DNA from: Oceanibacterium hippocampi
GTDB lineage: Bacteria; Pseudomonadota; Alphaproteobacteria; Sneathiellales; Sneathiellaceae
NCBI RefSeq assembly: GCF_900172325.1
Contig: NZ_FWFR01000003.1
Coordinates: forward strand, 620,001-684,000
Reading direction: 5' to 3'
DNA: 64,000 nucleotides
The position numbers and the translations under genes were made by a program. This document shows positions 1,862-21,932 of this stretch, piece after piece. Each line of letters begins with the position of its first letter. Position 1 is the stretch's first letter. The notes beneath the pieces were generated by a model, which made no database searches, was not told the origin of the DNA, and saw only the letters and a program-made list of their open reading frames with translations.

Positions 1862-2581
1862 TCAGCCGCCCATGTAAATTCGCCGCACTTCTTCGCTTTG
1901 GCTCAATTCTCCAGCCTCGCCGCTGAGTCGGATCTGACCGAGTTCGAGGACGTAACCGCGTTGCGCTACACCGAGCGCAATTTCGGCATTCTGCTCGACA
2001 ATGATCATGGTCTTTCCCTCGTCACTCAGCCGTGCCACGACTTGGTAGATTTGCTCGATGATGAGCGGCGCGAGCCCGGCTGATGGCTCGTCCAGAAACA
2101 ACAAACGCGGATCCGACATGAGAGCACGACCGATCGCCAGCATCTGTTGTTCTCCACCACTCATACTTCCAGCGCGTTGGGTTCGGCGTTCCGCGAGCCT
2201 TGGAAAGAGATCGAGAACAAACTCAAGTTGCTGTCGTTGCGCGGTCCGGCTCTGGTCAGCGGCGGAAAGGGAGCCAAGCTCCAAATTTTCCATGACCGTG
2301 AATGGCGGGAAAAGCTGCCTGCCTTCGGGCACAAGGGCGATCCCCATCCGCGCTATTTGCCACGCCGGCAAACCATCCAACCTCTTGCCGTCAAAGTTGA
2401 CTTGCCCCGAGCTCGGGCGATGCAGGCCAGCCAGCGATCGCATGAGTGTGGACTTCCCAGCACCATTCGGGCCGAGGAAGACGATAACCTCGCCCTCAGC
2501 GAGATCGAATGATATGTCCAGGAGGGCTTGGATCTCCCCGTAATAGGCATTCAAGCCCGATACCTCCATCAACATCGTCAA
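1862..2581 (-). CDS. livF: Branched-chain-amino-acid-type ABC transporter ATPase (LivF)
   Basis: A 239-residue cytoplasmic ATP-binding subunit of a HAAT-family importer. Walker A is at residues 37-44 (GPNGAGKS), the ABC signature at 141-146 (SGGEQQ) and Walker B at about 160-166 (LLFLDEP). Its start overlaps the end of the upstream permease-ATPase fusion gene by 4 bp (ATGA), implying translational coupling. Although the family is named for leucine/isoleucine/valine uptake, members beside aromatic catabolic genes often import aromatic acids or amides; the linkage to a ring-cleavage cluster here suggests such a substrate. Confidence 0.93.
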   Translation of the reverse strand: MTMLMEVSGLNAYYGEIQALLDISFDLAEGEVIVFLGPNGAGKSTLMRSLAGLHRPSSGQVNFDGKRLDGLPAWQIARMGIALVPEGRQLFPPFTVMENLELGSLSAADQSRTAQRQQLEFVLDLFPRLAERRTQRAGSMSGGEQQMLAIGRALMSDPRLLFLDEPSAGLAPLIIEQIYQVVARLSDEGKTMIIVEQNAEIALGVAQRGYVLELGQIRLSGEAGELSQSEEVRRIYMGG

Positions 2582-4386
2582 CCCACCCTCCCCAGATACG
2601 CTTCTCTGACAGCCTCATCACGGGACACTTCTGCAGGAGTTCCTTCCGACAGGTTTTGGCCGAAGTTGAGTACGACTATTCGATCACAGACTTCCATAAC
2701 CAAGCTCATCTTGTGCTCTACCAAGAGCACCCCTATGCCAGCAGCCGCGAGATCCCTTAGGATTGTTTTGAGTTGCCGGGCTTCGTTGTCATTCAGTCCG
2801 GCTGCGGGCTCGTCAAGGAGCAGGATTTTTGGCCGCGTGGCCAGAGCTCGAGCGATCTCGACCAACCGACGCTGGCCGAATGGCACGTTCGCCGCCTTCT
2901 CATACTTCAGACGAGCAAGATCAAGAGACTGCAGGAGCGCTATTGCCTCACGTTTAGCGTCAGCCTCCTCCCGGCGATAGGCAGGAAAAGGGAGAAGGCG
3001 GGCTACGAGACGCGCCAATCCGCGTCTTCCGTTCATGCCGACAAGAACATTCTCGAGAACGGTCAAATCTTCGAAGAGCTGTGGAGTCTGGAACGTTCTT
3101 GCGACCCCCTTTCGCACTACCTTGTCCGGTCGCAGCCCGGAAATCCGTTCGTGGCCAAGATCCACTTTTCCGCTAGTCGGCGCCAAAACGCCGGTGATCA
3201 GATTGATAGCTGTGCTTTTTCCCGCACCGTTCGGTCCAATCAGACCAACAACCTCACCCGACGATACACGCATCGAGAGGTCGCTAACGGCCATCAGACC
3301 GCCAAAAGACTTGGAGACCTGGACGACATTCAAGAATGGAGCGCTCGTATTCGCCCCCCCCTGAACAAAGCGGGAGGGTGCCCCGAACCCAGACCGGGCA
3401 ATCGGTTCCAATTCATCTGGCCCAACTTCGATCGCATCTGTCGCCGTGGAGCCGCGAAGGTGAAACACCCTCAAAACAATGTCGGAAATCAGTCCCGCGA
3501 TCCCGCGCGGCAAAAAATACAGGACGAGGATCAGCACGACACTATACCCCCAAAGCTGATAGTCGCCGAGGGAGCGGAGCATTTCCGGTACGATGACGGT
3601 CAACACTCCAGCCAGAATAGCACCGAGGTGACTGCCTAGCCCCGCGATGACAAGAACGGCCAGAAACAGGATCGAGTGGCCCGCTGTAAATGAGTTGGGG
3701 TGGATGTAACCGTTGAGGGTGGCGTATCCGGCACCCGCGGCACCGGCCAGTGCCGTCGAGAACGCAAAGGCCAAAAGCTTGTGCCCTGATATGTTCACGC
3801 CGAGCGATCGTGCCGCGTTCTCGTTCTCTCGAATAGCCCTCAGGTTCCGCCCATAGGCCGATCGGCTGATCAAGTCGGTGAACCAGAACGCAGCCAGGAA
3901 TAATACGAGTGAGAAATAGTAAAAGTGGTGATCCTCAAACAGCTCGAACCCCAGCACGTAGGGCCGCGGGATGCTGATAAGTCCCGTCTGGCCACCCGTC
4001 AATGCTATCCAGCGCCCGAGCAATACGTGGACAATCACGGCGAATCCGAGTGTCGCAACTGCAAGATAGAAATCCCGCAATCGGAGAGCGGGAAGTCCCA
4101 CAAGTACGCCGATAGCTGCCGTCACCAACATCGCGATGAGTAGGGCCAACCAGAACGACATTCCATAGTCGACCATGAGGATGCCGGCCGCATAGGCCCC
4201 TATCCCATAGAACGACAGATGGCCAAGCGAAATTTGCCCCGCATAACCGAAGATGATGTTCAAAGCGAAAGCGAGAACCGCAACAATCAGGGCCCAGTTG
4301 ATCAGCCGCATATAATATGTGCTATCGACGAACCCGGGTATGGCGAGTGCGCCGACGCCGAGCGCAAGGTACGTGAATCTATTCAT
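2578..4386 (-). CDS. Fused LivM permease and LivG ATPase of the HAAT importer
   Basis: A 602-residue fusion. Residues 1-305 are a LivM-type inner-membrane permease with many hydrophobic segments and the conserved GYAGQISLGHLSFYGIGAY loop near 47-65. After a linker (about 310-350), residues 352-602 form a LivG-type ATPase with Walker A GPNGAGKS at 384-391, a diverged signature (VPFGQRRLVEIARAL) and Walker B ILLLDEPAAGL. Separate livM and livG genes are the norm, though such fusions occur in proteobacteria. It lies 29 bp after livH and overlaps livF by 4 bp. Confidence 0.92.
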   Translation of the reverse strand: MNRFTYLALGVGALAIPGFVDSTYYMRLINWALIVAVLAFALNIIFGYAGQISLGHLSFYGIGAYAAGILMVDYGMSFWLALLIAMLVTAAIGVLVGLPALRLRDFYLAVATLGFAVIVHVLLGRWIALTGGQTGLISIPRPYVLGFELFEDHHFYYFSLVLFLAAFWFTDLISRSAYGRNLRAIRENENAARSLGVNISGHKLLAFAFSTALAGAAGAGYATLNGYIHPNSFTAGHSILFLAVLVIAGLGSHLGAILAGVLTVIVPEMLRSLGDYQLWGYSVVLILVLYFLPRGIAGLISDIVLRVFHLRGSTATDAIEVGPDELEPIARSGFGAPSRFVQGGANTSAPFLNVVQVSKSFGGLMAVSDLSMRVSSGEVVGLIGPNGAGKSTAINLITGVLAPTSGKVDLGHERISGLRPDKVVRKGVARTFQTPQLFEDLTVLENVLVGMNGRRGLARLVARLLPFPAYRREEADAKREAIALLQSLDLARLKYEKAANVPFGQRRLVEIARALATRPKILLLDEPAAGLNDNEARQLKTILRDLAAAGIGVLLVEHKMSLVMEVCDRIVVLNFGQNLSEGTPAEVSRDEAVREAYLGRVG

Positions 4387-4415: not shown

Positions 4416-5300
4416 TCAGGCGTAGCGTTCACGGAATGACTGCGCAGAGCCTGCAATCCCGGCGGGGCGAATGACCAAGACAAGCATCATGATCAAAAAC
4501 GCGATCGCGTCGCGATACTCCGCCGAGAGGTAGGTGGCTCCGAGCAACTCAAGGATGGCAATCAGAAACCCACCCACCACTGCCCCGGTCGGATTCCCGA
4601 GCCCGCCAACAATCGCTGCTGCAATGCCTTTAAGGCCAAGGCTCATGCCCATGTACGGCGTGGCGTAGCTTAACGGGCTGAACAACACTCCGGCGGCGGC
4701 GCTCAAGGAACCGCTGACGGCAAAAGCGACGATTGTTGCGCGGTTCGGATCGACGCCGATCAGGCTTGCCGCTTCGCGATTGATCGCGACAGCCTGGAAG
4801 CTCCGTCCGATGCGCGTCCGCTGATAGAAATACCAGGTTGCGGCCAGGGCGAGGAGCGTTGTCCCCAAGATGACGAAATGTTGAGGATCGAAATTGATCG
4901 CGCCTATGGCAACGAGATCTCCCCCGAAAGGCGACGCGAAAAACCTTTCGCTTTTCCCCCAAACGAGCGCAGCGCCATGCTGAAGAAACAGCGCTGTGGC
5001 GATCGTCAATACGACGATGACGCTCATGGAAGCACGCCGTTCGAGCAGAGGCTGCACCATGAATCGCCCGAAAAAGCCGGCGCCCGCTCCAACAGTGGCG
5101 ATGGTAACCAGGAAGGCAATCGGATAAGGAAGGTTTGTGTCAACGAGAGTTACGCCAAGCAAGCCCCCCAACATCACCAGTTCGCCCTGGGCAAAATTCA
5201 TGATGCGGCTAGCTGCATAGATGATCGTGAAGGCGAGGCCGATAAGTGCGTAAATGCTCCCCATGCTCAGGGCGGCCGCGATTAGCTGAAGGTCGTCCAT
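4416..5300 (-). CDS. livH: HAAT-family ABC transporter permease (LivH)
   Basis: An inner-membrane permease of about 294 residues with repeated hydrophobic helices and the LivH-type GLAFTIIYAASRIMNFAQGE loop near the N-terminus. It pairs with the LivM half of the downstream fusion to make the transmembrane pore. I place the start at the ATG at 5300; an in-frame GTG at 5318 would add six residues but lacks a convincing ribosome-binding site. It follows the periplasmic binding-protein gene by about 95 bp, a gap that contains a strong stem-loop. Confidence 0.9.
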   Translation of the reverse strand: MDDLQLIAAALSMGSIYALIGLAFTIIYAASRIMNFAQGELVMLGGLLGVTLVDTNLPYPIAFLVTIATVGAGAGFFGRFMVQPLLERRASMSVIVVLTIATALFLQHGAALVWGKSERFFASPFGGDLVAIGAINFDPQHFVILGTTLLALAATWYFYQRTRIGRSFQAVAINREAASLIGVDPNRATIVAFAVSGSLSAAAGVLFSPLSYATPYMGMSLGLKGIAAAIVGGLGNPTGAVVGGFLIAILELLGATYLSAEYRDAIAFLIMMLVLVIRPAGIAGSAQSFRERYA

Positions 5301-5353
5301 CCTTGCTTTCCCTTCCACGCAAGTGAGTTCTGCGGGCTTTCGGCGATGGTCTG

Positions 5354-5395: not shown

Positions 5396-6556
5396 TCAGT
5401 TTTTCGCCGGGACCATTTTCCCACCGAGAAACACTTTCAAGACCATGTCGCCAGCTCCGAGGCCATCATGATCGTCGGGTCCGTAGGAAATCGTCGCACC
5501 GGACTTGCCGTTTACGCCCTCGTAGCCAGTCGTCGACTCGACGGCATCCCGCAGTTTCATGCGATCTGCACCTGACCTGTTGAGCGCCTGGACAATAATC
5601 ATGACCGAGTCGTAGCCGGCCGCGGGGAAGAAGTTGAAGGGTTGCTCACCTTGCCGAGCTTGGTAAGCGGCATTGAATTTGACCACCGAACTCTTCGTCG
5701 AATCGATTCCATCGAGGACGATCGTCCCGTCGGCGTCGTCACGAGCGAGTTTTGGAAAGCTCTCCATCGTGAGGCCAGGATGGCCAATGACGGCCGGCTT
5801 GTAGGCTAGTTGTTTCATTGCCCTCAACGCCTGCGCTGCGTCCGCGCCTTGCGCTTGCACGATGACGGCGTCGACATCCGCCTTCTTGAAATTGAGGATC
5901 TGCGGAGTGAGATCCTGCGTGCTGATGTCGAACGCTTCAGTATCGACAGGCTCCTTGTTGATTTTCCTCAAGGCAGAAACGATCCTGTCCTTGCCTCCGT
6001 CGCCCCAAGGGGTCGTTTCGTACAAGATGCCGATTCGACCGTATTCCGCAGCAAGGCTGGCGATTACCGTTGCGACATCCCTATCTCGCACCCAGGTCCG
6101 GAAGAAGTATGGATTCACTGGATCTGTCAGCCGATCCATGGTCGAGATCGGTGAAATCTGGACGACCTGAGCCCGACGGGTGATTGCTGACGTCGCAAGC
6201 GCGTAAGCCGAATGGGGAGGACCGATAATCGCCCATACGTCATCCAGATCGATCAATTTACGAGCCGCAGTGACGGCCTTTTGGGCATCGTTCTCATCGT
6301 CCTCCTTGATCAGCTTCAGCTTCCGACCATGAACGCCACCAGCGGCATTGACTTCGTCAATCGCGATTTCAACGCCCCGCAAAGTGTCCTCGCCGAGTAC
6401 TGCATTGAATCCTGTCAATGTCCCAATGAAGCCAATCGGGATCGCGTCTTCTTCTGCAGTTGCAGGAAGAATGACTGCAAACGACAGGGCGGCAGTCACT
6501 AAAGCAACAGCGGATGACACCCGATTAAACATATGCATCCATCGCTTTTTAATCAT
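5396..6556 (-). CDS. Periplasmic substrate-binding protein of the HAAT importer
   Basis: A 386-residue type I periplasmic binding protein (Leu/Ile/Val-binding, Peripla_BP_6 family). It begins with a basic stretch and hydrophobic signal peptide ending near ATAEE (residue about 36), then shows the family's opening (IPIGFIGTLTGFNAVLGEDTLRGVEIAIDEVNAAGG region) and AIIGPPHSAYALA. The start at 6556 is supported by an excellent Shine-Dalgarno (GGGAGGGA) four bases upstream. It is the second gene after the M20 hydrolase, 38 bp away, so the hydrolase and importer are almost certainly co-transcribed. Substrate unknown; an aminated or amidated aromatic acid would fit the island. Confidence 0.9.
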   Translation of the reverse strand: MIKKRWMHMFNRVSSAVALVTAALSFAVILPATAEEDAIPIGFIGTLTGFNAVLGEDTLRGVEIAIDEVNAAGGVHGRKLKLIKEDDENDAQKAVTAARKLIDLDDVWAIIGPPHSAYALATSAITRRAQVVQISPISTMDRLTDPVNPYFFRTWVRDRDVATVIASLAAEYGRIGILYETTPWGDGGKDRIVSALRKINKEPVDTEAFDISTQDLTPQILNFKKADVDAVIVQAQGADAAQALRAMKQLAYKPAVIGHPGLTMESFPKLARDDADGTIVLDGIDSTKSSVVKFNAAYQARQGEQPFNFFPAAGYDSVMIIVQALNRSGADRMKLRDAVESTTGYEGVNGKSGATISYGPDDHDGLGAGDMVLKVFLGGKMVPAKN

Positions 6557-6594: not shown

Positions 6595-7872
6595 TCAGGC
6601 ATTACATATCTGAAGTGCAGTCAGCGCATATATCTTTGCTGCTTTCACCATGTCCGAAATCAGGAAGAACTCGTTGCCACCGCCAGCGCCTGCGCCGCAA
6701 CCGTATGTGAGTGCGGGAATTCCCAATTCGTTGTAGGGGTTCGTATCCCGCCACATGCTGCATTCGGGGGAGCCCACCGCCTCGGACGGAGACCCAAGAA
6801 TGCGCCGGTGGGAAGACTCGATCACTTCTGAAAGAGGCTCGATGCCTTCCGCCTCGAAACCGCGGCGATAGACGAATGGTTCGATCTTGGCTTCAACGCC
6901 CATATCACGGGCGACCCGCCGAATCTCATCGATCACCTGCTTGGGCCGTGTATCGGGATTCAGGCGCACGTCGATATAGATCGAACAGTGCTCGGGATAC
7001 CGATAAATCTTGTAGGGGACCCCACCGCGAATTGCACCGATCGAAGCCTTGGGAACGACCGTGCCGCCCTTGTACTGACGGGTGTAGCGGCTCTCATAGT
7101 CCGCCGCCCAGGCCTCGATTCCTTCCACCAGCCTGGCCATCCGGACAATAGCGTTGGCGTTGTCGCCGATGCGATCAGGATGCTCGACATAAGGCGTATA
7201 GCGCGACGGACCAGCGATCGCTGTAACTTTCAGGAAGACCTTGCCCGCCTCGACCCAGGCCATCTTGAAATTCGTCGCTTCTGCGACGACTGCGTAGTCG
7301 GCGAGCGCGCCGTGAGTTATCGCATACCGGGCACCGATATCCTCGGCGAGATAATCGTGGCCCTGGAATTCGTCGACCGGATCACAATCGATCTCGCCAC
7401 AAACTGCGGTCAGGACCAGATCTCCCTTGAGTTTGGCCTCCGACTCCTTGAGCGCCTTGGCTGCCATCAGCCAACACGTCATGGGCCCTTTGCAGTTGAC
7501 GACATTGTATCCGAAGATCTTTCCGTCACGGAGCCAGGCCTCGTGATAGATCGGGTTCTCTGCATCCGAGAAGCGTGCGATGTCGTCGCGAGCCATGATC
7601 GTATCAAGGTGGCTGTTGAAGGCGAGATCCTTGCCGCCGCCGGTCCCTCGCAGCCAGCCGACAACATTGAATCGATCTTCGAACACACCGACCCGTTGCG
7701 GCGCAAACCCTTCTGACTTCATCCAGTCGTAGACGAAATCTCCCGCCGGCCCCTCTCTGCCAGTCGGTGACTCGATATTCCCGATATCGAGGGCGAACTG
7801 GGTTAGCTCGGCCTCCATCTTATCGATCCGGCCCAGCACACGTGCAACGTCGGTATCGTTCATTGTGGTCAT
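6595..7872 (-). CDS. M20-fold metallohydrolase, candidate aromatic aminohydrolase (NaaA-like)
   Basis: A 425-residue protein with the M20 peptidase/deacylase layout: catalytic domain, inserted dimerisation domain (about 205-320), catalytic domain again. The first metal motif SHLDT is present (H88, D90), as are the general-base Glu (E160) and a Glu at 198. However, the bridging-Asp position of the usual GxxDxKG motif reads VNCKG (N126), the second Glu of the usual EE pair is I161, and the C-terminal His ligand position is N400. The dinuclear zinc site is therefore unlikely to be intact. NaaA (5-nitroanthranilate aminohydrolase) is an M20-fold enzyme that I recall as having an atypical metal site. 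Together with the lactonase and cupin neighbours this makes aromatic deamination a better guess than peptide hydrolysis. First gene of the importer operon. Confidence 0.7.
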   Translation of the reverse strand: MTTMNDTDVARVLGRIDKMEAELTQFALDIGNIESPTGREGPAGDFVYDWMKSEGFAPQRVGVFEDRFNVVGWLRGTGGGKDLAFNSHLDTIMARDDIARFSDAENPIYHEAWLRDGKIFGYNVVNCKGPMTCWLMAAKALKESEAKLKGDLVLTAVCGEIDCDPVDEFQGHDYLAEDIGARYAITHGALADYAVVAEATNFKMAWVEAGKVFLKVTAIAGPSRYTPYVEHPDRIGDNANAIVRMARLVEGIEAWAADYESRYTRQYKGGTVVPKASIGAIRGGVPYKIYRYPEHCSIYIDVRLNPDTRPKQVIDEIRRVARDMGVEAKIEPFVYRRGFEAEGIEPLSEVIESSHRRILGSPSEAVGSPECSMWRDTNPYNELGIPALTYGCGAGAGGGNEFFLISDMVKAAKIYALTALQICNA

Positions 7873-7927
7873 CGGACGCTTCCTCGTTCTCTTGTCGAAA
7901 TTCGGTTCTCTTGAATGAACTTTGTAA

Positions 7928-7976
7928 AGCCTAGATCACATTCTCAAGCGATGTCAATTCGGAACACCGAATGACA
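7928..7976 (-). promoter_or_regulatory. Promoter of the hydrolase/importer operon with overlapping dyad operator
   Basis: On the minus strand TTGACA (7957-7952) is followed after 18 bp by TAGGCT (7933-7928), a plausible sigma-70 promoter about 55 bp upstream of the M20 gene. The -35 box forms one arm of an imperfect inverted repeat, TGTCAATTCGG / CCGAATGACA, at 7952-7976, well placed for a repressor. The ATTCGGAA core is shared with the dyad before iclR (1812-1822), and a further ATTCGG lies at 7900-7905. Confidence 0.5.
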
Positions 7977-8062
7977 TGAGCTCGCCATTTTCGGCGCAAT
8001 ATGGCGGATCTATATCAAAAGATATGGAATGAACTTCTCAGTGGCCGGTGACAGGGTCCCGG

Positions 8063-8110
8063 TTGACAGAACGATGAAGACTCGATCAATATGTACTCTC
8101 TGTTGATCGA
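8063..8110 (+). promoter_or_regulatory. Promoter of the cupin operon with overlapping dyad
   Basis: A perfect -35 hexamer TTGACA (8063-8068) is followed at 18 bp by a weak CAATAT (8087-8092). A perfect inverted repeat TCGATCAA / TTGATCGA with a 13-bp spacer (8082-8110) covers the -10 and expected start point. The leader to the cupin ATG would be about 150 nt. The region 7873-8247 holds no gene; it is the divergent control region of the island. Confidence 0.45.
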
Positions 8111-8247
8111 TGTTCTTTCTATAAAACGTTTTGCCGAATGAAAGAGACTCGACGCCACCCCGCTCCGGTCCATCGACAGGACCACGAGCATCACGACCGG
8201 CCCTCTCAAAGCAGGGCCTGGTACTCACAAGCAAGAGGAGAAGCGCG

Positions 8248-8880
8248 ATGAAGTGGACCAATGAAAGCGGCTACCCCTGGTGCCGAATTACCCCCGCCGA
8301 AAGTTTCTTCGATCACGTCGTCCAGCACGACACCCGTCCGGGTAACTGGAGATGGAAAGATGTGGTCGCAGGGCTTCATAAGCTCGACGAGGATCCGCGA
8401 ATGGACTCGGAGCGTCGCTACGTCGCCATCGTGAATGACGACGCCGGCTTGGGAGAAACCCCGGGCATCGGTATCACCCCGACCCTGTTTTGCGGTTGCC
8501 AGCTCATTCATCCGGGCGAGCGCGTGACTTCCCACCGACATAATTCAGTGGCGCTCTACTTCATCGTTCAGGGCACCGGGGAACTAGAGGTCGAGGGCGT
8601 CACCGAGCGGTACGAACCGTTCTCGATCATGACCTGCCCCGCCTGGCACTACCACGAATGGCGTGCAGACGGGGACGCGGACACGTTGATGTACGTTATT
8701 CACGACATGGCGCTACACGCCTACACGCGGAGCCTTTTCTGGGAGGAGCCAAAAGGCCAGGAAAACATTCGGCACGTCGTCAAGGGCGCTTCGCATACCT
8801 GGACTGCCACGAAACCCCTCGAACAATCCAAAACGGAAGCCGCCAAACAGATGCGCGATCAGGGCGTGCCTGCAAAGTAA
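8248..8880 (+). CDS. Single-cupin ring-cleavage dioxygenase, gentisate/5-nitrosalicylate dioxygenase-like
   Basis: A 210-residue cupin protein. The metal-binding motif is visible: HPGERVTSHRHNS (H96 and H98), then the FIVQGTGELEVEG strand and the second motif WHYHEW (H134, H136). Gentisate dioxygenases are bicupins of about 350 residues; this is a shorter single-cupin version, consistent with the dioxygenases that attack substituted salicylates. The ATG at 8248 is chosen for its GAGGAG ribosome-binding site; the frame extends further upstream but without a good start. First gene of the plus-strand operon. Function as ring dioxygenase is inferred from motif plus downstream lactonase and acylpyruvate hydrolase. 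Confidence 0.7.
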   Translation: MKWTNESGYPWCRITPAESFFDHVVQHDTRPGNWRWKDVVAGLHKLDEDPRMDSERRYVAIVNDDAGLGETPGIGITPTLFCGCQLIHPGERVTSHRHNSVALYFIVQGTGELEVEGVTERYEPFSIMTCPAWHYHEWRADGDADTLMYVIHDMALHAYTRSLFWEEPKGQENIRHVVKGASHTWTATKPLEQSKTEAAKQMRDQGVPAK

Positions 8881-8940: not shown

Positions 8941-9300
8941 TTGGACGCTGTCTTGGATGATCACTGGGCCTTGTTGGCGACCGTCGACGATATTCCCATC
9001 GGCGAGATGCGCTCATACCTCATGGACGGCGGAGTGGTCGCCGTCGCCAATGTAAATGCAGCTTTCTATGCCTTCGCCGACAAGTGTGAACACATGGGTG
9101 TCGCCCTTTCCGACGGCGCTCTCGAGAACGACGTCGTGGTCTGCACCTTGCACAAATGGCGCTACTGCCTTCGAACCGCGGCACTTGAGCACCCGAAACC
9201 CGGCAAGCCCTTCACGACATTCCCGGTGAAAATCGAGGGTAGGAATATCTGGGTTCGCCGCTGGCCAAAGACAGTCTACGAGCGCCAAGGCACGCGCTGA
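8941..9300 (+). CDS. Stand-alone Rieske [2Fe-2S] ferredoxin
   Basis: A 119-residue Rieske protein with the ligand pattern C49-x-H51-x16-C68-x2-H71. Such small ferredoxins pass electrons to Rieske non-heme oxygenases or, like NirD, serve reductases. No oxygenase alpha subunit or ferredoxin reductase gene is present in the island, so its partner is unknown. The only usable start is the TTG at 8941, without a clear ribosome-binding site and directly behind the strong stem-loop, implying low or coupled translation. It may have a maintenance role, such as re-reducing the iron of the dioxygenase; this is speculation. Confidence 0.8.
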   Translation: MDAVLDDHWALLATVDDIPIGEMRSYLMDGGVVAVANVNAAFYAFADKCEHMGVALSDGALENDVVVCTLHKWRYCLRTAALEHPKPGKPFTTFPVKIEGRNIWVRRWPKTVYERQGTR

Positions 9301-9335
9301 CGGACTTTCCACGCTTGCCCAATACGAGGACCATC

Positions 9336-10085
9336 ATGGACCAGAAAACCGCCACCAAGACGACCAGGCACGTCGCAAGCGGCAAAGTCGATATCGCTTG
9401 CCATTTCCTGCCGTCGCGAACGCAGGATACCGGCGCGTCAATCATCGTCATGCCCACGGTACACGGAATAAACGACTACATTCTTGATACCGCGGCGCTC
9501 CTTTCCGACCAAGGATACGACGCATGGGTCATCGACATTTATTCGCGCGCCGGAGGCAAGCCGGATCTCACCACGCCTGACGCCATCAAGGACGCAGTCG
9601 CCGGTCTCTCAGACCCCGAAATTGTGAATGACATCGGCGCTGTCGCAACTGCTATCCGCGATGAGAAGCCCGGCACAGACAGGCGTCTCGGTGTTCTCGG
9701 ATTCTGTATTGGTGGCGCCCACGCCCTCATTGCCGCCGCGACAATACCGAAACTGGACGCGTGCGTAGGTTTCTATGGCCTCGTTGCCTACAGTGAGCTC
9801 ACCGATACGAAACCGAAATCGCCCATCGACTATGTCGCCGATCTCGACACGCCGTTCCTCTACCATGTCGGCGATCAGGATGTCTGGGTACCCGATCATC
9901 TCCGCTCCGCCTTCAAGGCGCGCCTGAGAGAGAGCGGGAAAGCTCACGAAATCCGTGTCTATGACGGTGCGGGGCATGGTTTTCACGAACATCATCGGCC
10001 GCACTACCGGCCGGTGGCAGCGATGGATGCCTGGTCCCGCACAATGGTGTTCCTCGACTGGTACCTGAGACGCGCGCCACGGTGA
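9336..10085 (+). CDS. Dienelactone hydrolase family protein (candidate lactonase)
   Basis: A 249-residue alpha/beta hydrolase of the dienelactone hydrolase family. The Cys nucleophile elbow GFCIGG (C124), the Asp in GDQD (about D182) and the His in AGHGFHE (H214) form the expected Cys-Asp-His triad. The ATG at 9336 has an upstream GAGGA. In nitrosalicylate breakdown the ring-cleavage product closes to a lactone as nitrite leaves, and a lactonase opens it to maleylpyruvate; a DLH-type enzyme here would fill that step. It is separated by 35 bp from the Rieske gene and 36 bp from the next gene, in one operon. Confidence 0.8.
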   Translation: MDQKTATKTTRHVASGKVDIACHFLPSRTQDTGASIIVMPTVHGINDYILDTAALLSDQGYDAWVIDIYSRAGGKPDLTTPDAIKDAVAGLSDPEIVNDIGAVATAIRDEKPGTDRRLGVLGFCIGGAHALIAAATIPKLDACVGFYGLVAYSELTDTKPKSPIDYVADLDTPFLYHVGDQDVWVPDHLRSAFKARLRESGKAHEIRVYDGAGHGFHEHHRPHYRPVAAMDAWSRTMVFLDWYLRRAPR

Positions 10086-10121
10086 TTTCCGGACATTCGC
10101 TATTTGACCCGAAAGAGAATC

Positions 10122-10814
10122 ATGAACATGAAATATGCCGTTCCCGCGGCGGTGAGGCCGCACGTGGCCATCGCCCGCAGCGAGCAAGTGTTTCCAGTAC
10201 GCAGGATCTATTGCGTTGGCCGCAACTACGCAGCCCACGCCCGCGAGATGGGGGCGGACCCCGACCGCGAACCACCCTTCTTCTTCCTCAAGCCGGCCGA
10301 TGCCGTGGTCGCGAGTGGGACGACCGTGCCCTATCCGCAGGCAACCGAGAACTACCAGCATGAGATCGAACTGGTCGCAGCGATCGGAAAGGCAGGGCAC
10401 GATATTTCCGCCGCCGCGGCACTCGATCACGTCTTTGGCTATGCCGTGGGCCTAGACATGACGCGCCGCGACTTGCAGATGCAGGCCCGCGAGAAGGGCC
10501 GTCCGTGGGACATGGGCAAGGGTTTCGACCAGTCTGCGCCGTGCGGCGCCATCCACCGAATATCCGATGTCGGCCACATCGGGAAGGGAGCGATCTGGGT
10601 CGAAGTCAACGGCGAGAAGCGCCAGGTCGCGGACGTTTCGCAACTGATCTGGAATGTTGCCGAGACGATAGCTCATCTGTCACGGATGGTCGGACTGGCG
10701 CCTGGCGACTTCATCTATACCGGCACCCCCGAAGGGGTATCCAGTATCGGCCCGGGCGACCACATGGTCGGCCATGTGGACGGACTTAGCGATCTTGAGA
10801 TCTCGATTTCCTGA
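10122..10814 (+). CDS. Fumarylacetoacetate hydrolase family protein, probable fumarylpyruvate/acylpyruvate hydrolase
   Basis: A 230-residue FAH-superfamily enzyme: IYCVGRNYAAHAREMG opening, then NYQHEIELVAAIG carrying the metal-binding Glu pair (E81, E83), and the C-terminal SRMVGLAPGDFIYTGTPEGV block. The length and CVGRNYAAHA start fit fumarylpyruvate or acylpyruvate hydrolases (YcgM/NagK type), which split the last intermediate of gentisate-type pathways into pyruvate and fumarate or maleate. No maleylpyruvate isomerase is seen, so either it acts directly on maleylpyruvate or the isomerase is elsewhere. The ATG at 10122 has an AAAGAGA upstream. Last gene of the operon. Confidence 0.85.
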   Translation: MNMKYAVPAAVRPHVAIARSEQVFPVRRIYCVGRNYAAHAREMGADPDREPPFFFLKPADAVVASGTTVPYPQATENYQHEIELVAAIGKAGHDISAAAALDHVFGYAVGLDMTRRDLQMQAREKGRPWDMGKGFDQSAPCGAIHRISDVGHIGKGAIWVEVNGEKRQVADVSQLIWNVAETIAHLSRMVGLAPGDFIYTGTPEGVSSIGPGDHMVGHVDGLSDLEISIS

Positions 10815-10977: not shown

Positions 10978-11259
10978 AGTTAGAGTTTTCCGCGTTTTTG
11001 CCGGCTGGGAGAAGGAGCGGAGAACGATGAAAGCATCACAGTTCACGGACGCCCAGAAGGCGTTCATCATCAAGCAGAGCGACGATGGAACGCCTGTCGC
11101 GGAGGTCTGCCGCAAGGCGGGGATCAGCCAGGCAACGTACTTCAACTGGAAGAAGAAGTACGCCGGCCTGATGCCGTCGGAGATGAGGCGCTTGCGCGAG
11201 CTCGAGCAGGAGAATGCGCGGCTGAAGAAGATCGTTGCGGACCTGTCGCTGGACAAGGT
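10978..11259 (+). mobile_element. IS3-family element A, left end only
   Basis: Begins with the presumed inverted-repeat end TTAGAGTTTTCCGC (10980-10993), repeated in the same inward orientation at 14162 and 14212. It contains a truncated orfA and is interrupted at about 11260 where a second IS3 element starts. The 163 bp between the hydrolase stop (10814) and this end hold two short hairpins (about 10852-10868 and 10900-10925) and no gene. Confidence 0.6.
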
Positions 11260-11272
11260 GAATAGCCCCTAG
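11027..11272 (+). pseudogene. IS3-family transposase OrfA, truncated
   Basis: Encodes an OrfA-type helix-turn-helix protein (FTDAQKAFIIKQSDDGTPVAEVCRKAGISQATYFNWKKKY region) with the leucine-zipper segment LRELEQENARLKKIVADLSLDK. At about 11259 the frame runs into the left end of another IS3 element and stops after four foreign residues (VNSP), a few residues short of a normal OrfA. No matching orfB follows directly; fragments of this transposase type appear at 13.8-15.0 kb. Confidence 0.8.
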
Positions 11273-12073
11273 ATTCGTAGACGCCTCCTTCCCCAATTTT
11301 GAGGCAAGGAGGCCATGATGGGCAAAGTCAATTTCACCGAGGATTTCAAACGGGACGCGGTGGCGCAGATCACCGAGCGGGGCTATCCGGTGGCGGAGGT
11401 TTCGCAGCGGCTGGGCGTGAGCCAGCATTCGGTTTACGCCTGGAAGCGGAAGTGCGTGCAGCCACTTGGTGGCGATGACAGAGACGCCGAGATCAGGCGT
11501 CTGAAGGGCGAGCTGGTGAGGGTCACCGAGGAGCGCGACATCTTAAAAAAAGCCACCGCGTATTTCGCCAGGGATGCAAAGTGAGATACGCGTTCATCGC
11601 CGAGCATCGCCCGCTGTTCTCGGTACGGGCGATGTGCCGCTGCCTGCGCCTTCATCCGAGCGGCTTCTATGCGTGGCTCAAGAACCCGCTGAGCAAGCGG
11701 GCACGCGAAGATGCCTGCCAGACCGAACTGATACGGAAGGCGTGGAAGGAGAGCGGCAGGATCTACGGCTATCGCAAGCTTCACGATGACCTGCTGGACC
11801 AGGGCGAGACGTGCTGCCCGAACCGTGTCGCACGCCTGGCGCTGCTCGCCGGCATCGAGGCCCAGATCGGCTACAGGCGCCGTCCCGGCACCTATAGCGG
11901 CAAGCCGTCAGTGGTGGTCGACAACACGCTGGATCGGCAGTTCGATGTGGACGCGGCTGACAGGGTCTGGGTCACCGACATCACCTATATCAGGACGCTG
12001 GAAGGCTTTGCCTATCTGGCCATCGTGATCGATCTCTACTCCCGCCGTGTGGTCGGCTGGTCGATGCAGAGCC
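11260..12073 (+). mobile_element. IS3-family element B, 3' truncated
   Basis: Starts with an IS3-subgroup-like end (TGAATAGCCCCTAGATTCGT) inside element A's orfA, and carries its own orfA and the first two thirds of orfB. Homology to the transposase ends near 12073, in the middle of the DDE domain, where unrelated sequence starts. The right end of this copy is missing, so the junction at 12073 was made by deletion or recombination rather than by clean transposition. Confidence 0.65.
11315..11584 (+). CDS. IS3-family transposase OrfA (element B)
   Basis: An 89-residue OrfA with helix-turn-helix ([19 protein letters not shown], then [18 protein letters not shown]) and coiled-coil tail ([21 protein letters not shown]). 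Near the end the DNA reads cttaaaaaaagcc (about 11541-11553), an A-rich slippery sequence of the kind IS3 elements use for the programmed -1 frameshift that makes the OrfAB transposase. orfB starts with a 4-bp overlap (GTGA). Confidence 0.88.
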
Positions 12074-12261
12074 GGAGGCCGCCCTCCGCGCCGTCACTCG
12101 CAACGAAATTAGTTGCAGCCAACTGTCCGACAGCCAAAAGCAGGACATCCTTGCTGCCTGGCGGTACGCCGGATCACTGGATCGGGACGACCGTCCGGAG
12201 CGGTAGCGGATCAAGGCAAGTGCGGAGTGTGATAAAATTGGCAGCCGATGAACGACGATGA
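11581..12261 (+). pseudogene. IS3-family transposase OrfB, truncated
   Basis: The OrfB frame begins with the usual IS3 N-terminal helix region ([20 protein letters not shown]) and enters the rve integrase core with the first catalytic Asp in VWVTDITYI and [17 protein letters not shown]. After about residue 164 (nt 12073) the sequence is no longer transposase-like: the second Asp and the Glu of the DDE triad are absent and the frame runs through foreign sequence to a stop at 12261. It therefore cannot encode an active transposase. Confidence 0.85.
12066..12206 (+). pseudogene. C-terminal fragment of an unidentified gene at an IS junction
   Basis: In a different frame from the truncated transposase, 46 codons read through to a TAG at 12204-12206 (contains [19 protein letters not shown], ends DRDDRPER). 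The composition is that of a real soluble protein and it ends 41 bp before the start of the HEPN-motif gene, as an upstream operon partner would. The 5' part has been replaced by IS element B. Function unknown; that it is coding at all is inferred from its open frame and residue usage. Confidence 0.35.
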
Positions 12262-15322: not shown

Positions 15323-15804
15323 CCGGTCCGGTCGCGACCGACAAGCTCCGGCGGAAGATCGCTGAACTGGACGATCTCTCCCGCCCGGAGCTTGTTCAGC
15401 GGTGGCAGAAGGCGCATGGCTGCCTGCCACCGAAGGGAATCAAGCGCGGCCTGCTCCTTCGCTCGGCCGCCTGGCATCTCCAGGCGAGGCATCTGGGTGG
15501 CCTCAAGGGGGACGTCAAACGCGCGCTTCGGAAACTGATAAAGGCGGAGGTGCCCACGCGCGACAAGAGTCGCGCCGCGGGTTCCTCTCCTGACGTCACG
15601 CGAATCGGGGAATCCCCGGCGCGGTTGCGGCGCCGGCTCGTGCCGGGCACGCGACTGGTCCGCGAGTGGCAGGGGCGCCTGCATGTGGTCGAAGTGGTGG
15701 AGGACGGTTTCCTGCATGACGGGAAGACCTACCGATCGCTGTCCGCAGTAGCCCGGCGGATCACCGGCGCGCAATGGTCCGGCCCGAGGTTCTTCGGCCA
15801 ATGA
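15319..15804 (+). CDS. DUF2924 domain protein
   Basis: A 161-residue basic protein with the DUF2924 signature: N-terminal helical part (RKIAELDDLSRPELVQRWQK, then GIKRGLLLRSAAWHLQA) and C-terminal part with RRRLVPGTRLVREWQGRLH and GKTYRSLSAVARRITGAQWS. The last block resembles a DNA-interacting domain seen in recombinase-linked proteins. It overlaps both neighbours by 4 bp, so the three genes are translationally coupled. Function is unknown; linkage to the recombinase suggests an accessory or directionality factor. Confidence 0.88.
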   Translation: MTGPVATDKLRRKIAELDDLSRPELVQRWQKAHGCLPPKGIKRGLLLRSAAWHLQARHLGGLKGDVKRALRKLIKAEVPTRDKSRAAGSSPDVTRIGESPARLRRRLVPGTRLVREWQGRLHVVEVVEDGFLHDGKTYRSLSAVARRITGAQWSGPRFFGQ

Positions 15805-17495
15805 GCAAGGGCAAGCGTCTGTGTTGCGCGATCTATACGCGCACATCCTCGGACGAGAACCTTGACCAGGCATTCAACTCCCTCCACGCCCAGCGGGAGG
15901 CCTGCGAGGCCTTCATTCGCTCACAGGCCAGCGAAGGCTGGCACTTGCTTTCGGACGGTTACGATGACGGCGGCTTCTCCGGCGGGACGATGGACCGCCC
16001 GGCCCTCAAGCGGCTGCTGGATCAGGTACAGGAGAACCGGATCGACATTGTCGTGGTCTACAAGATCGATCGCCTGACAAGATCGCTGACGGATTTCGCC
16101 CGGATCGTCGAGATATTCGATGCCCAAGATGTCTCCTTCGTCTCGGTAACACAGGCCTTCAACACCACGACCTCGATGGGCCGGCTCACTCTCAACGTGC
16201 TTCTATCCTTTGCCCAGTTCGAGCGTGAGGTCACGGCAGAGCGCATCCGTGACAAGATCGCGGCGTCCAAGAAGAAGGGCATGTGGATGGGCGGCAATGT
16301 TCCGTTGGGCTACCGGGTGGAAAAGAGGAAGCTCCTGATCGAGGAATCGGAAGCCGGGACCGTCCGCTTCCTGTTCCGGCGCTATCTCGAAGTGAAGTCG
16401 CTCCGCAGGCTGGCAGAAGAGATCAATGGCTCAGATAGAGTTATCCGACGAGGGCGCCCGAGGAACGGTATCAGCCACATCACAGACCCCTTCCAGGCCG
16501 GCAGCTTGCGGCACCTGCTTGCCAATCCGATCTATGCCGGCCGGATTCGTCATCGTGACAAGAGCTATGAGGGTGAACATGCGGGCATTATCGATCCCGA
16601 ACTCTTCGAACGGGTTCAGGCACAGCTGAAGGAACAGGCCCCCAGACGGCAGCATGCGACGAACACGAAGGATCTCCATCTGTTGACCGGGATGCTCTTC
16701 GACGAAACCGGTGACCGGCTGACACCGACGCAGTGCCGCAATCATGGCAAACGGTATCGCTACTATGTGTCGAAGCGGATCATCCACCGGGGCAGAGTCG
16801 GGGCCCGGCTCCATAACGGCTGGCGCGTCCGCGCGCAAGATATCGAAACCATCGTCGAAAACACGCTGCTCGAAATCCTCCGGAACCCGAGCCGGCTCCA
16901 TGAATGGTTCAGAGGTCGTCTGAGCGGAGAGAAGGTCCGTCAACTCGCCGCCTCTGCGGCAGCACGATGCAAGGCGTGGCCCGTCGCGTTGCCGGACCGG
17001 AAGCAAGCGCACCTGCGGCGTCTGCTTCGAAGGATCACCCTTCGTCCCGGCTGGATCCGGTTCGAGCTGGACCGGAACTCGCTCCTGGCCTGGCTGATGG
17101 ATGAGCCGCCGGACGCGGAACAGGAGCCATCAATCGTCACGATCGAACAGCCCATGTCCATCCGGCGACACGGCGTCGAAAGCCGGATGATCCTCGCGAA
17201 TGGAACCGCCCCGACCTGCCAGCCCGATGCGGCGCTGATCGACCTGGTCGTTCGAGCCAATCGCTACCTCGGCACGCTGACAGACGGATCTGCGAAGAGC
17301 ATTTCCGAGGTTGCAGAAGAGCATGGCGCGAACGCCTCCGAGGTCAGCCGGCTCCTACCTTTCGCCTTCCTCTCGCCACACCTGGTCGAGGGAATTCTCG
17401 CGGGCACGCAGCCGGCCGGGCTAGGCGCGCAACGCTTGTCGCGCATCGATCTGCCCTGCGACTGGAGCCAGCAGGCAAAGATACTCGGCTTCTGA
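15801..17495 (+). CDS. Large serine recombinase
   Basis: A 564-residue site-specific recombinase. The resolvase catalytic domain (1-150) has the nucleophile region YTRTSSDE (S16 likely) and IVVVYKIDRLTRSLTDFARIV with the conserved Arg; the PF07508-type recombinase domain follows (about 165-290). The zinc-ribbon region normally rich in CxxC motifs is here LTGMLFDETGDRLTPTQCRN, without the paired cysteines. The ATG at 15801 overlaps the DUF2924 stop; an in-frame ATG 27 bp upstream is less likely. About 220 bp beyond its stop lies the 3' end of a tRNA gene, a possible attachment site. Confidence 0.92.
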   Translation: MSKGKRLCCAIYTRTSSDENLDQAFNSLHAQREACEAFIRSQASEGWHLLSDGYDDGGFSGGTMDRPALKRLLDQVQENRIDIVVVYKIDRLTRSLTDFARIVEIFDAQDVSFVSVTQAFNTTTSMGRLTLNVLLSFAQFEREVTAERIRDKIAASKKKGMWMGGNVPLGYRVEKRKLLIEESEAGTVRFLFRRYLEVKSLRRLAEEINGSDRVIRRGRPRNGISHITDPFQAGSLRHLLANPIYAGRIRHRDKSYEGEHAGIIDPELFERVQAQLKEQAPRRQHATNTKDLHLLTGMLFDETGDRLTPTQCRNHGKRYRYYVSKRIIHRGRVGARLHNGWRVRAQDIETIVENTLLEILRNPSRLHEWFRGRLSGEKVRQLAASAAARCKAWPVALPDRKQAHLRRLLRRITLRPGWIRFELDRNSLLAWLMDEPPDAEQEPSIVTIEQPMSIRRHGVESRMILANGTAPTCQPDAALIDLVVRANRYLGTLTDGSAKSISEVAEEHGANASEVSRLLPFAFLSPHLVEGILAGTQPAGLGAQRLSRIDLPCDWSQQAKILGF

Positions 17496-20063: not shown

Positions 20064-21932
20064 CTAAGGTCGTTCCTCGCGCCCGGAGGCGCGCCCAAAT
20101 CCTTCCAGTTCCGCCTCGCTTCCCTCGGCGGCTTCGAGGCGACGCTTGACCGCCAGAAAACGCCCCAGGGTCTCGTCGGTCATGTTTTCGGCGAGTTCCG
20201 CCTCGGCCACCCGCAACTCCGCGAGCAACCCATCACGCCGGTGCCTGGCCAGAACATGTTTCCAGCCGCGTTCCGCGTCATCCAGATGGGCCTCTGCCAT
20301 GGCGAACCATTCGACCGCCCCCAATTCTCCCCCGAGCAGTCTCTTCGCGATCGTATCGTGACCGCCAACAGCTAGTTGGCTCTTTAGCTTTTGGCTGTCA
20401 AGCCCTGGACAGAAAGAGGCGATATCTATTATCCCCACACGCAGCCTGTCAAGTTCAGGTCGCTCGAACTCGATCTCGGCCAGTTCCTCCAGGTAGCGCT
20501 CGATCAGTTCCGGATGGGTCAGCAGGGTTGCCAGAAGCTGCACCTCGCGACGGGCGCCGGTTTCCGGCATGCGGGTCGGGCCGAGCCCCGGCCGCGGCCG
20601 CGGCCGTTCCGCGCCGCGACGATAGTCGCCCTGACCGCCCCGGTCACGCCGGTCGGACTGGCGGCGCCAGTCGAAAGCCTCGGACAGACGGCGGCGGAAC
20701 TCCTCCTGATAATAGCCCTGGACGGTGGCATCGCGGATCGACCCGGCGAGCTGGAACAGCTCCTGGCGCAACGCCGCCCGTCGCTCCGGGGTATCGAGAT
20801 CGCGGTCGCCGGTCGCCTTCCGCCAGAGCAGCTCGGCAAAGGGCAGCGCCGCGTCGAGCACCGCCTGCATTGCCGGCGGGCCGCCGGCGCGGATCAGGTC
20901 ATCCGGGTCCTGGCCCTCCGGCAGGATCGCGAAGCGCAGCGAATGGCCCGGCTTCAGCAGCGGCAGCGCGCGCTCCGCCGTCCGCACCGCCGCATTCAGG
21001 CCCGCCTGATCGCCGTCGAGGCAGATGATCGGCTCCGGCGCCATGCGCCAGAGCAGTTCGATCTGCTCCTCGGTGACCGCCGTGCCGAGCGGCGCGACTG
21101 CATGTGCGAAGCCGGCCTGCGACAGGGCGATCACGTCCATGTAGCCCTCGGCGACCAGGACCGTGCCGGCTGCCCGCACCGCCTCGCGCGCGCCGGCGAG
21201 ATTGTAGAGCGCGCGGCCCTTGTGGAAGAGCGGCGTCTCGGGCGAGTTCAGGTATTTCGCCCGGGCCTCGCCGAGCGCCCGGCCGCCGAAGGCGATGACC
21301 CGTCCCTGGCGGTCGGTGATCGGAAAGATCAGGCGGTCGCGAAAGCGATCGAAGGCTTCCCCGCCGCCCTCGGGGCGGGCGATCAGGCCGGCCTCGACCA
21401 TCTGCTCCTCGGTGATGTTCCGGGCCGCCAGCGCCTCGGCCAGCGCCCGCCGCCGGCCCGGCGCGAGACCGAGACGGAACCGCGCGATACTGGCCTGCCC
21501 GACGCCGCGCCCGGACAGATAATCGCGCGCACGGCCGCCGGCCTCGCCCTTCAACTGGCTTTCGAACCAGGCGGCCGCGGCCTCCAGAACCTCGTGCAGG
21601 CCCGCCGCTTTCTCGCGACGCGCATGGGCTTCCGGGCTCTCTTCCGGGACCGTCATGCCGGCATCGGCGGCCAGCTGTCGAACCGCCTCGATAAAGCTCA
21701 GGCCGTCCTGCTCGCGCAGGAAGTCGAGCGCATCGCCATGCACGCCGCAGCCGAAGCAGTGGTAGAAGCCGCGTTCCTCGTTGACGCCGAACGATGGCGA
21801 TTTCTCGTTATGGAATGGACAGAGTCCGACCATCCGGCGGCCCTGGCGGATCAGCTTCACCCGCCGGCCGACGATCGCGGTGATCGAGGTCCGTTCCCTG
21901 AGTTCGTCGAGGAATGAGGCCGGTACAGACAT
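20064..21932 (-). CDS. dnaG: DNA primase DnaG
   Basis: A 622-residue primase that makes RNA primers at the replication fork. The N-terminal CHC2 zinc-binding domain is intact (C38, H41, C59, C62), the Toprim core is visible (VLVAEGYMDVIAL; ICLDGDQAGLNA) and the C-terminal helicase-interacting part is helical with a Arg/Gly-rich linker (about 415-450). It lies 78 bp after yqeY and 81 bp before rpoD on the same strand, the macromolecular-synthesis arrangement conserved in many bacteria. Confidence 0.97.
   Translation of the reverse strand: MSVPASFLDELRERTSITAIVGRRVKLIRQGRRMVGLCPFHNEKSPSFGVNEERGFYHCFGCGVHGDALDFLREQDGLSFIEAVRQLAADAGMTVPEESPEAHARREKAAGLHEVLEAAAAWFESQLKGEAGGRARDYLSGRGVGQASIARFRLGLAPGRRRALAEALAARNITEEQMVEAGLIARPEGGGEAFDRFRDRLIFPITDRQGRVIAFGGRALGEARAKYLNSPETPLFHKGRALYNLAGAREAVRAAGTVLVAEGYMDVIALSQAGFAHAVAPLGTAVTEEQIELLWRMAPEPIICLDGDQAGLNAAVRTAERALPLLKPGHSLRFAILPEGQDPDDLIRAGGPPAMQAVLDAALPFAELLWRKATGDRDLDTPERRAALRQELFQLAGSIRDATVQGYYQEEFRRRLSEAFDWRRQSDRRDRGGQGDYRRGAERPRPRPGLGPTRMPETGARREVQLLATLLTHPELIERYLEELAEIEFERPELDRLRVGIIDIASFCPGLDSQKLKSQLAVGGHDTIAKRLLGGELGAVEWFAMAEAHLDDAERGWKHVLARHRRDGLLAELRVAEAELAENMTDETLGRFLAVKRRLEAAEGSEAELEGFGRASGREERP

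Follow-up and report, generated by a model that had tools for sequence, protein, structure and literature searches.

In M20 enzymes, the first metal is bound by a His, a bridging Asp, and an Asp or Glu, and the second metal is bound by the bridging Asp, a second Glu, and a C-terminal His. The closest described relative of the gene analyzed here is NaaA, the 5-nitroanthranilate aminohydrolase of Bradyrhizobium sp. JS329, which we take to hold one metal per active site. In 2016 its metal was reportedly described as labile and its mechanism as SNAr. Structures of NaaA (PDB 5K8M, 5K8N, 5K8O, and 5K8P) were released in October 2016; their titles describe an apo form, a 5NAA-bound form, an Mn2+/5NSA-bound form (5K8O), and a Zn2+/tetrahedral-intermediate form of R289A (5K8P), and they state just Mn2+ or Zn2+ as bound. 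The title of the R289A entry suggests that R289 is important. In passages of a 2025 Nature paper, NaaA is grouped with other hydrolytic enzymes believed to follow SNAr-type pathways, in which either a metal hydroxide or a covalent aryl ester is the intermediate (PMC11903332). The 5-nitroanthranilate reaction and pathway are known from Bradyrhizobium JS329, and passages of the papers concerned give the route as deamination, ring cleavage with nitrite loss, and hydrolysis of the lactone, which yields maleylpyruvate for subsequent degradation (PMC4539516, PMC10306065).

The window (the whole stretch of 64,000 nucleotides analyzed here, from Oceanibacterium hippocampi contig NZ_FWFR01000003.1) contains an open reading frame on the minus strand at 6595-7872, which begins with ATG, has no internal stops, and encodes an M20-fold protein of 425 aa. 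A phmmer search of PDB with this product returned 5k8m (E 1.2e-212; 5k8n and 5k8o are identical to it in sequence) and 5k8p (E 8.7e-212), and the next match after the NaaA entries was a DapE (E 4.8e-4). Of 419 residues aligned with NaaA, 293 (69.9%) were identical, including those at H88, D90, N126, E160, I161, E198, R291, R375, D376, G397, and N400. R289 of NaaA, the residue mutated in 5K8P, corresponds to R291 here, and the metal, catalytic, and R289 positions are thus the same in the two proteins. They differ in host, at Glu162 of NaaA (Asp164 here), and in 30% of their other residues. The original prediction had described the metal site of NaaA as atypical; this comparison proved to be the right and decisive one, with the same residue at every named site. 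Because 5K8M to 5K8P have these residues, the unusual site was already present in structures released in 2016, and this oddity is an established feature of the NaaA enzyme family and no new discovery.

Fold and phylogeny were examined in turn. A model of the product predicted from a five-row alignment was only moderate in quality (mean pLDDT 73.2, pTM 0.74), with pLDDT below 50 at 161-186, 285-291, and 395-400, segments that cover I161, R291, and N400. With this model, the top 12 Foldseek rows were chains of 5k8m, 5k8n, 5k8o, and 5k8p, and the four NaaA entries led the VIA comparison with Z scores of 39.8 to 42.0 (next entry, 31.7). In a tree of 41 unique subfamily rows (defined below), NaaA, and 6 of 10 M20 paralogs of the same genome, the product and NaaA were sisters (support 97/88). 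Homology to NaaA is therefore full length and stands above that to all other M20 families in both the PDB search and the tree. Judged from its sequence, the gene very likely encodes a NaaA ortholog that would act as a 5-nitroanthranilate aminohydrolase.

The neighboring genes were then compared with the published route. Divergent from naaA, on the plus strand at 8248-8880, lies a naaB ortholog encoding a monocupin 5-nitrosalicylate 1,2-dioxygenase of 210 aa (8ch4, E 9.7e-110); the mechanically called ORF begins at 8131, and the gene start was taken as 8248. The product is identical at 154 of 206 positions to the 5-nitrosalicylate dioxygenase of Bradyrhizobium JS329 (8CH4), and all 12 active-site residues checked, as named in passages of PMC10306065, are kept: the Fe ligands H96, H98, and H136 and nine further sites (R56, Y58, F81, G83, Q85, S100, A102, Y104, and W138). 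Downstream on the same strand are genes for a dienelactone-hydrolase-family protein (9315-10085; PF01738, E 3.9e-38), a candidate lactonase, and an FAA-hydrolase-family protein (10104-10814; PF01557, E 1.1e-55), a candidate fumaryl/maleylpyruvate hydrolase that matched 4maq, a putative fumarylpyruvate hydrolase, at E 8.6e-82. Protein family and the published pathway step point to these lactonase and last-hydrolase roles. Between naaB and the candidate lactonase is a lone Rieske [2Fe-2S] ferredoxin gene (8941-9300, plus strand; PF00355, E 2.5e-14), with no partner oxygenase identified among the neighbors; as a guess, the ferredoxin might supply electrons that hold the iron of the ring-cleaving enzyme in its reduced state.

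Downstream of naaA and on its strand are genes for an ABC importer and an IclR-family regulator (972-1781; PF01614, E 1.5e-27). The importer comprises a periplasmic substrate-binding protein (5396-6556; PF13458, E 4.7e-57), a permease of the branched-chain amino-acid type (4416-5318; PF02653, E 1.5e-39), a fused permease and ATPase (2578-4386; PF02653 and PF00005), and a putative second ATPase (1862-2581), assigned from a reading of its translation. The divergent naaA-naaB intergenic region (7873-8247; GC 49.6%) is the presumed control region; it contains short inverted repeats, and a promoter/terminator scan of it gave no hit and no sigma-70-like site. The neighboring enzymes fit the order that the published route needs, most of the pathway is apparently present, and the locus is very probably a 5-nitroanthranilate cluster.

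These results bear on substrate. The original prediction favored a new specificity, which is not supported, given the roughly 70% identity to NaaA, the retained R291, and the adjoining naaB ortholog; for the same reasons, the known specificity, 5-nitroanthranilate hydrolysis, is the simplest. A related reading, which overlaps with this one in family and chemistry and differs in substrate, is that a NaaA-fold enzyme acts mainly on a different but related aromatic amine with an electron-poor ring, such as an anthranilate with other substituents. The divergence from NaaA in 30% of residues and the extra Rieske ferredoxin gene would be consistent with such a substrate, but the named sites, R291, and the 12 checked NaaB sites are all identical, so that steps one and two both agree with the route for 5-nitroanthranilate, and we regard another main substrate as unlikely.

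To place the metal ligands, the naaA product was aligned with seven relatives and with ten further M20 proteins encoded in this genome; a genome search for M20 proteins had returned 12 places, of which one was naaA itself and one was a partial match (L019) that was omitted. H88, D90, E160, and E198 are retained with the numbering and letters given previously. N126 falls in the column of the bridging Asp (GRGATDMKT in the paralog L009 versus GYNVVNCKG here), and I161 stands where the Glu-Glu pair has its second Glu, as the original prediction held. Its third substitution, C-terminal His to N400, stood only in part: the His is absent, but N400 is three columns away and is not its equivalent. N400-E401 align with the [N/D]-E of an H-x-x-[N/D]-E motif, and the His column, three before N400, is a gap in the naaA product, or G397 if the gap is closed. 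Both of the second metal's own ligands are thus lost. At the first site, H88 and E198 remain, and the bridge position is occupied by an invariant Asn.

Among the ten paralogs, the bridging Asp, the Glu-Glu pair, and the His are all present in the five DapE/ArgE-type proteins (L009 to L013) and likewise in L014, L015, and L017; L008 keeps the Glu-Glu pair and a His and differs at the His88 and Asp columns. The tenth, L016 (1261-2481 of its stretch; G000:C6:769576-770796), also has an odd pattern: the bridging Asp is Asn (VSNMKAG), the second Glu is Leu (VVGELQ), and the His is absent (KYNTMPDERV). Because L016 has the same pattern, the odd site is unusual but not unique even inside this genome. 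L016 had no matches at E 1e-50 among 298 other genomes sampled. In the tree, it adjoins the NaaA-like clade (support 97/89) on a very long branch, a situation of which the program warns, and a shared origin of the ligand loss in L016 and the NaaA-like clade is not claimed.

The distribution of the pattern was assessed with a subfamily set collected by tblastn with the naaA product over the fetched loci (E 1e-40 or better, at least 300 aligned residues). The set has 55 rows, including the naaA product and its own duplicate, and 41 unique rows after copies were removed. H88, D90, N126, E160, and E198 are kept in 55/55 rows; 54 rows carry Ile at position 161, and one carries Met. No row has His at position 397 (Pro in 52, Gly in 3) or at position 400 (gap in 52, Asn in the naaA product and its duplicate, Ala in one). 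The same letters in NaaA and the subfamily-wide occurrence in 55 rows argue that the site pattern is due neither to chance nor to decay. These counts are to be read with the recruitment in mind: rows were found with the naaA product or with profile A2, both of which contain the pattern, and two of the peptide patterns by which L004-L007 were obtained coincide in part with conserved motifs, but selection was by full-length similarity. Profile A2 matched 2 of 398 genomes of a phylum sample at E 1e-60, this genome included, and 38 of 199 genomes of one alphaproteobacterial family.

With the second Glu and the His lost and the bridging Asp replaced by Asn, a normal dizinc site is unlikely, as originally predicted; the alignment to ArgE/DapE-type proteins also showed that the dinuclear ligand set is not intact in the naaA product. 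An ordinary dizinc amidohydrolase or peptidase of the ArgE/DapE kind would need its ligands supplied by other residues. The product does pass the M20 Pfam model PF01546 (46.3 bits versus a cut-off of 24.6); the next fold matches after NaaA are DapE/ArgE structures, with DapE/ArgE and carboxypeptidase G2 sharing the fold at VIA Z scores of about 27 to 32; the HxD motif, the first Glu of the pair, and the third-site Glu are common to the DapE/ArgE types of this genome; and H187, kept in 54/55 subfamily rows, could in principle be an extra metal ligand. In contrast to DapE/ArgE and carboxypeptidase G2, however, the naaA product has the bridging Asp replaced by Asn and the second Glu by Ile and lacks the C-terminal His, and the loss of the last two is subfamily-wide. 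None of the 21 NCBIfam matches listed reached its cut-off (best, TIGR01910, 92.6 versus 217.6), and PDB describes NaaA, which is 70% identical, as an aminohydrolase. We also considered whether a dizinc site could be assembled from alternative ligands; among the acidic and His residues that are invariant in the eight-row alignment (E40, H88, D90, E160, D192, E198, E260, and D376), there is no obvious substitute for the second Glu or the His. An ordinary dizinc enzyme is accordingly very improbable. A decayed, inactive M20 paralog, to which the departure of the ligand positions from those of ordinary M20 enzymes of the same genome might point, is the least credible reading of all, given an open full-length frame, Asn126 in 55/55 rows, and sites identical to those of NaaA, which was solved with substrate and product bound.

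For the preferred NaaA-type enzyme, the ligand set points to one metal per site. Since the second site lacks its own ligands and the first is kept, the best-supported mechanism would have one divalent metal ion activate the water and E160 act as base, a chemistry different from that of the M20 peptidases whose fold the enzyme has. The metal would sit at the first M20 site, held by H88, E198, and probably N126. With E160 as general base, the metal would deliver hydroxide to the amino-bearing ring carbon of 5-nitroanthranilate, and the tetrahedral adduct would be stabilized by the electron-poor ring, with R291 as a putative substrate contact. Departure of ammonia would yield 5-nitrosalicylate, the ring of which would next be opened by the NaaB ortholog with loss of nitrite; the two hydrolases that follow in the cluster would then open the lactone and cleave it.

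Most of the NaaA-like genes compared outside the window have other neighbors. We examined 22 loci (7 named records and 15 genome stretches from one alphaproteobacterial family), with L055 omitted as a copy of L006, L062 and L063 sharing one genome, and L064, one of the 22, having supplied the queries. By tblastn of the neighbors, a RutA-like monooxygenase and an isochorismatase-family hydrolase were found nearby in 20/22 loci, and a flavin reductase was also present in 14; the monooxygenase of L064 matched RutA at E 1.2e-67. The loci without the pair were L004 and L005. L004 (645-3395), from a Bacillota metagenome-assembled genome, holds a 51%-identical NaaA-like gene with R291 kept, directly downstream of a UbiD-family decarboxylase gene, and its position in the tree is weak (support 90/55).

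The RutA-linked branch (one alphaproteobacterial family, Cohnella, and three plasmids) is 37 to 42% identical to the naaA product (33 and 36% in two plasmid rows) and shares the pattern of Asn, Ile, and no His. Unlike the naaA locus, it has the monooxygenase and the isochorismatase-family hydrolase as neighbors. The subfamily rows also differ from the naaA product at position 291, which is Ala in 47/55 and Arg in 3/55, and by deletion of the C-terminal segment around N400 in 52/55. TauD, Rieske oxygenase, DOPA-dioxygenase-like, formamidase-like, and TonB-receptor genes are often present as well (L006, L007, L020-L022, L025, and L056-L069). The M20 protein of L064 (8838-10226) had no Pfam match at E 1e-3, and the branch may for this reason go unlabelled in Pfam-based annotation. 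We suggest tentatively, as an idea that may well prove wrong, that NaaA is a rare tip of a larger M20 subfamily of hydrolytic aryl-amine aminohydrolases that has lost the second metal site, and that the main branch, encoded beside the RutA-like flavin monooxygenase and the isochorismatase-family hydrolase, which is RutB-like, deaminates an electron-poor N-heteroaromatic, the ring of which the RutA-like enzyme would then open. A literature search of partial coverage found no paper on the NaaA subfamily or a RutA-M20 operon, which does not show the matter to be unpublished.

The surroundings of the naa genes were also surveyed. The window has an IS21 helper gene at its left end, pieces of an IS3-type integrase lie at 11581-12261, and plasmid matches cover 1-751 and 11259-12074; a serine recombinase gene (15774-17495) and dnaG (20064-21932) follow. 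The naa genes have a GC content of 56 to 60%, versus 63 to 67% for the rest of the window from 12300 on. None of 59 other sampled relatives had a NaaA-like match at E 1e-40, and a NaaB-like match at the same threshold was found in 4 of 385 genomes of a class sample, this genome included; the other three were 45 to 46% identical, one with an internal stop. Phage records gave no match, and NaaB matched 10 plasmid records, none of them covering 80% of the query. Horizontal gain of the naa cluster is the simplest reading.

The naaA gene is a well-explained and ordinary oddity, encoding a NaaA ortholog within what is probably a 5-nitroanthranilate cluster. The analysis turns an apparent anomaly into a firm annotation, a naaA-naaB locus besides that of Bradyrhizobium JS329, and corrects the generic label "M20 peptidase" for the gene at 6595-7872. 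The subfamily-wide signature, in which the bridging Asp is replaced by Asn and the second Glu by Ile or Met and the C-terminal His is absent, provides a simple rule for spotting further candidate metal-dependent aryl-amine hydrolases, and the rule also takes in the recurrent RutA-linked group.
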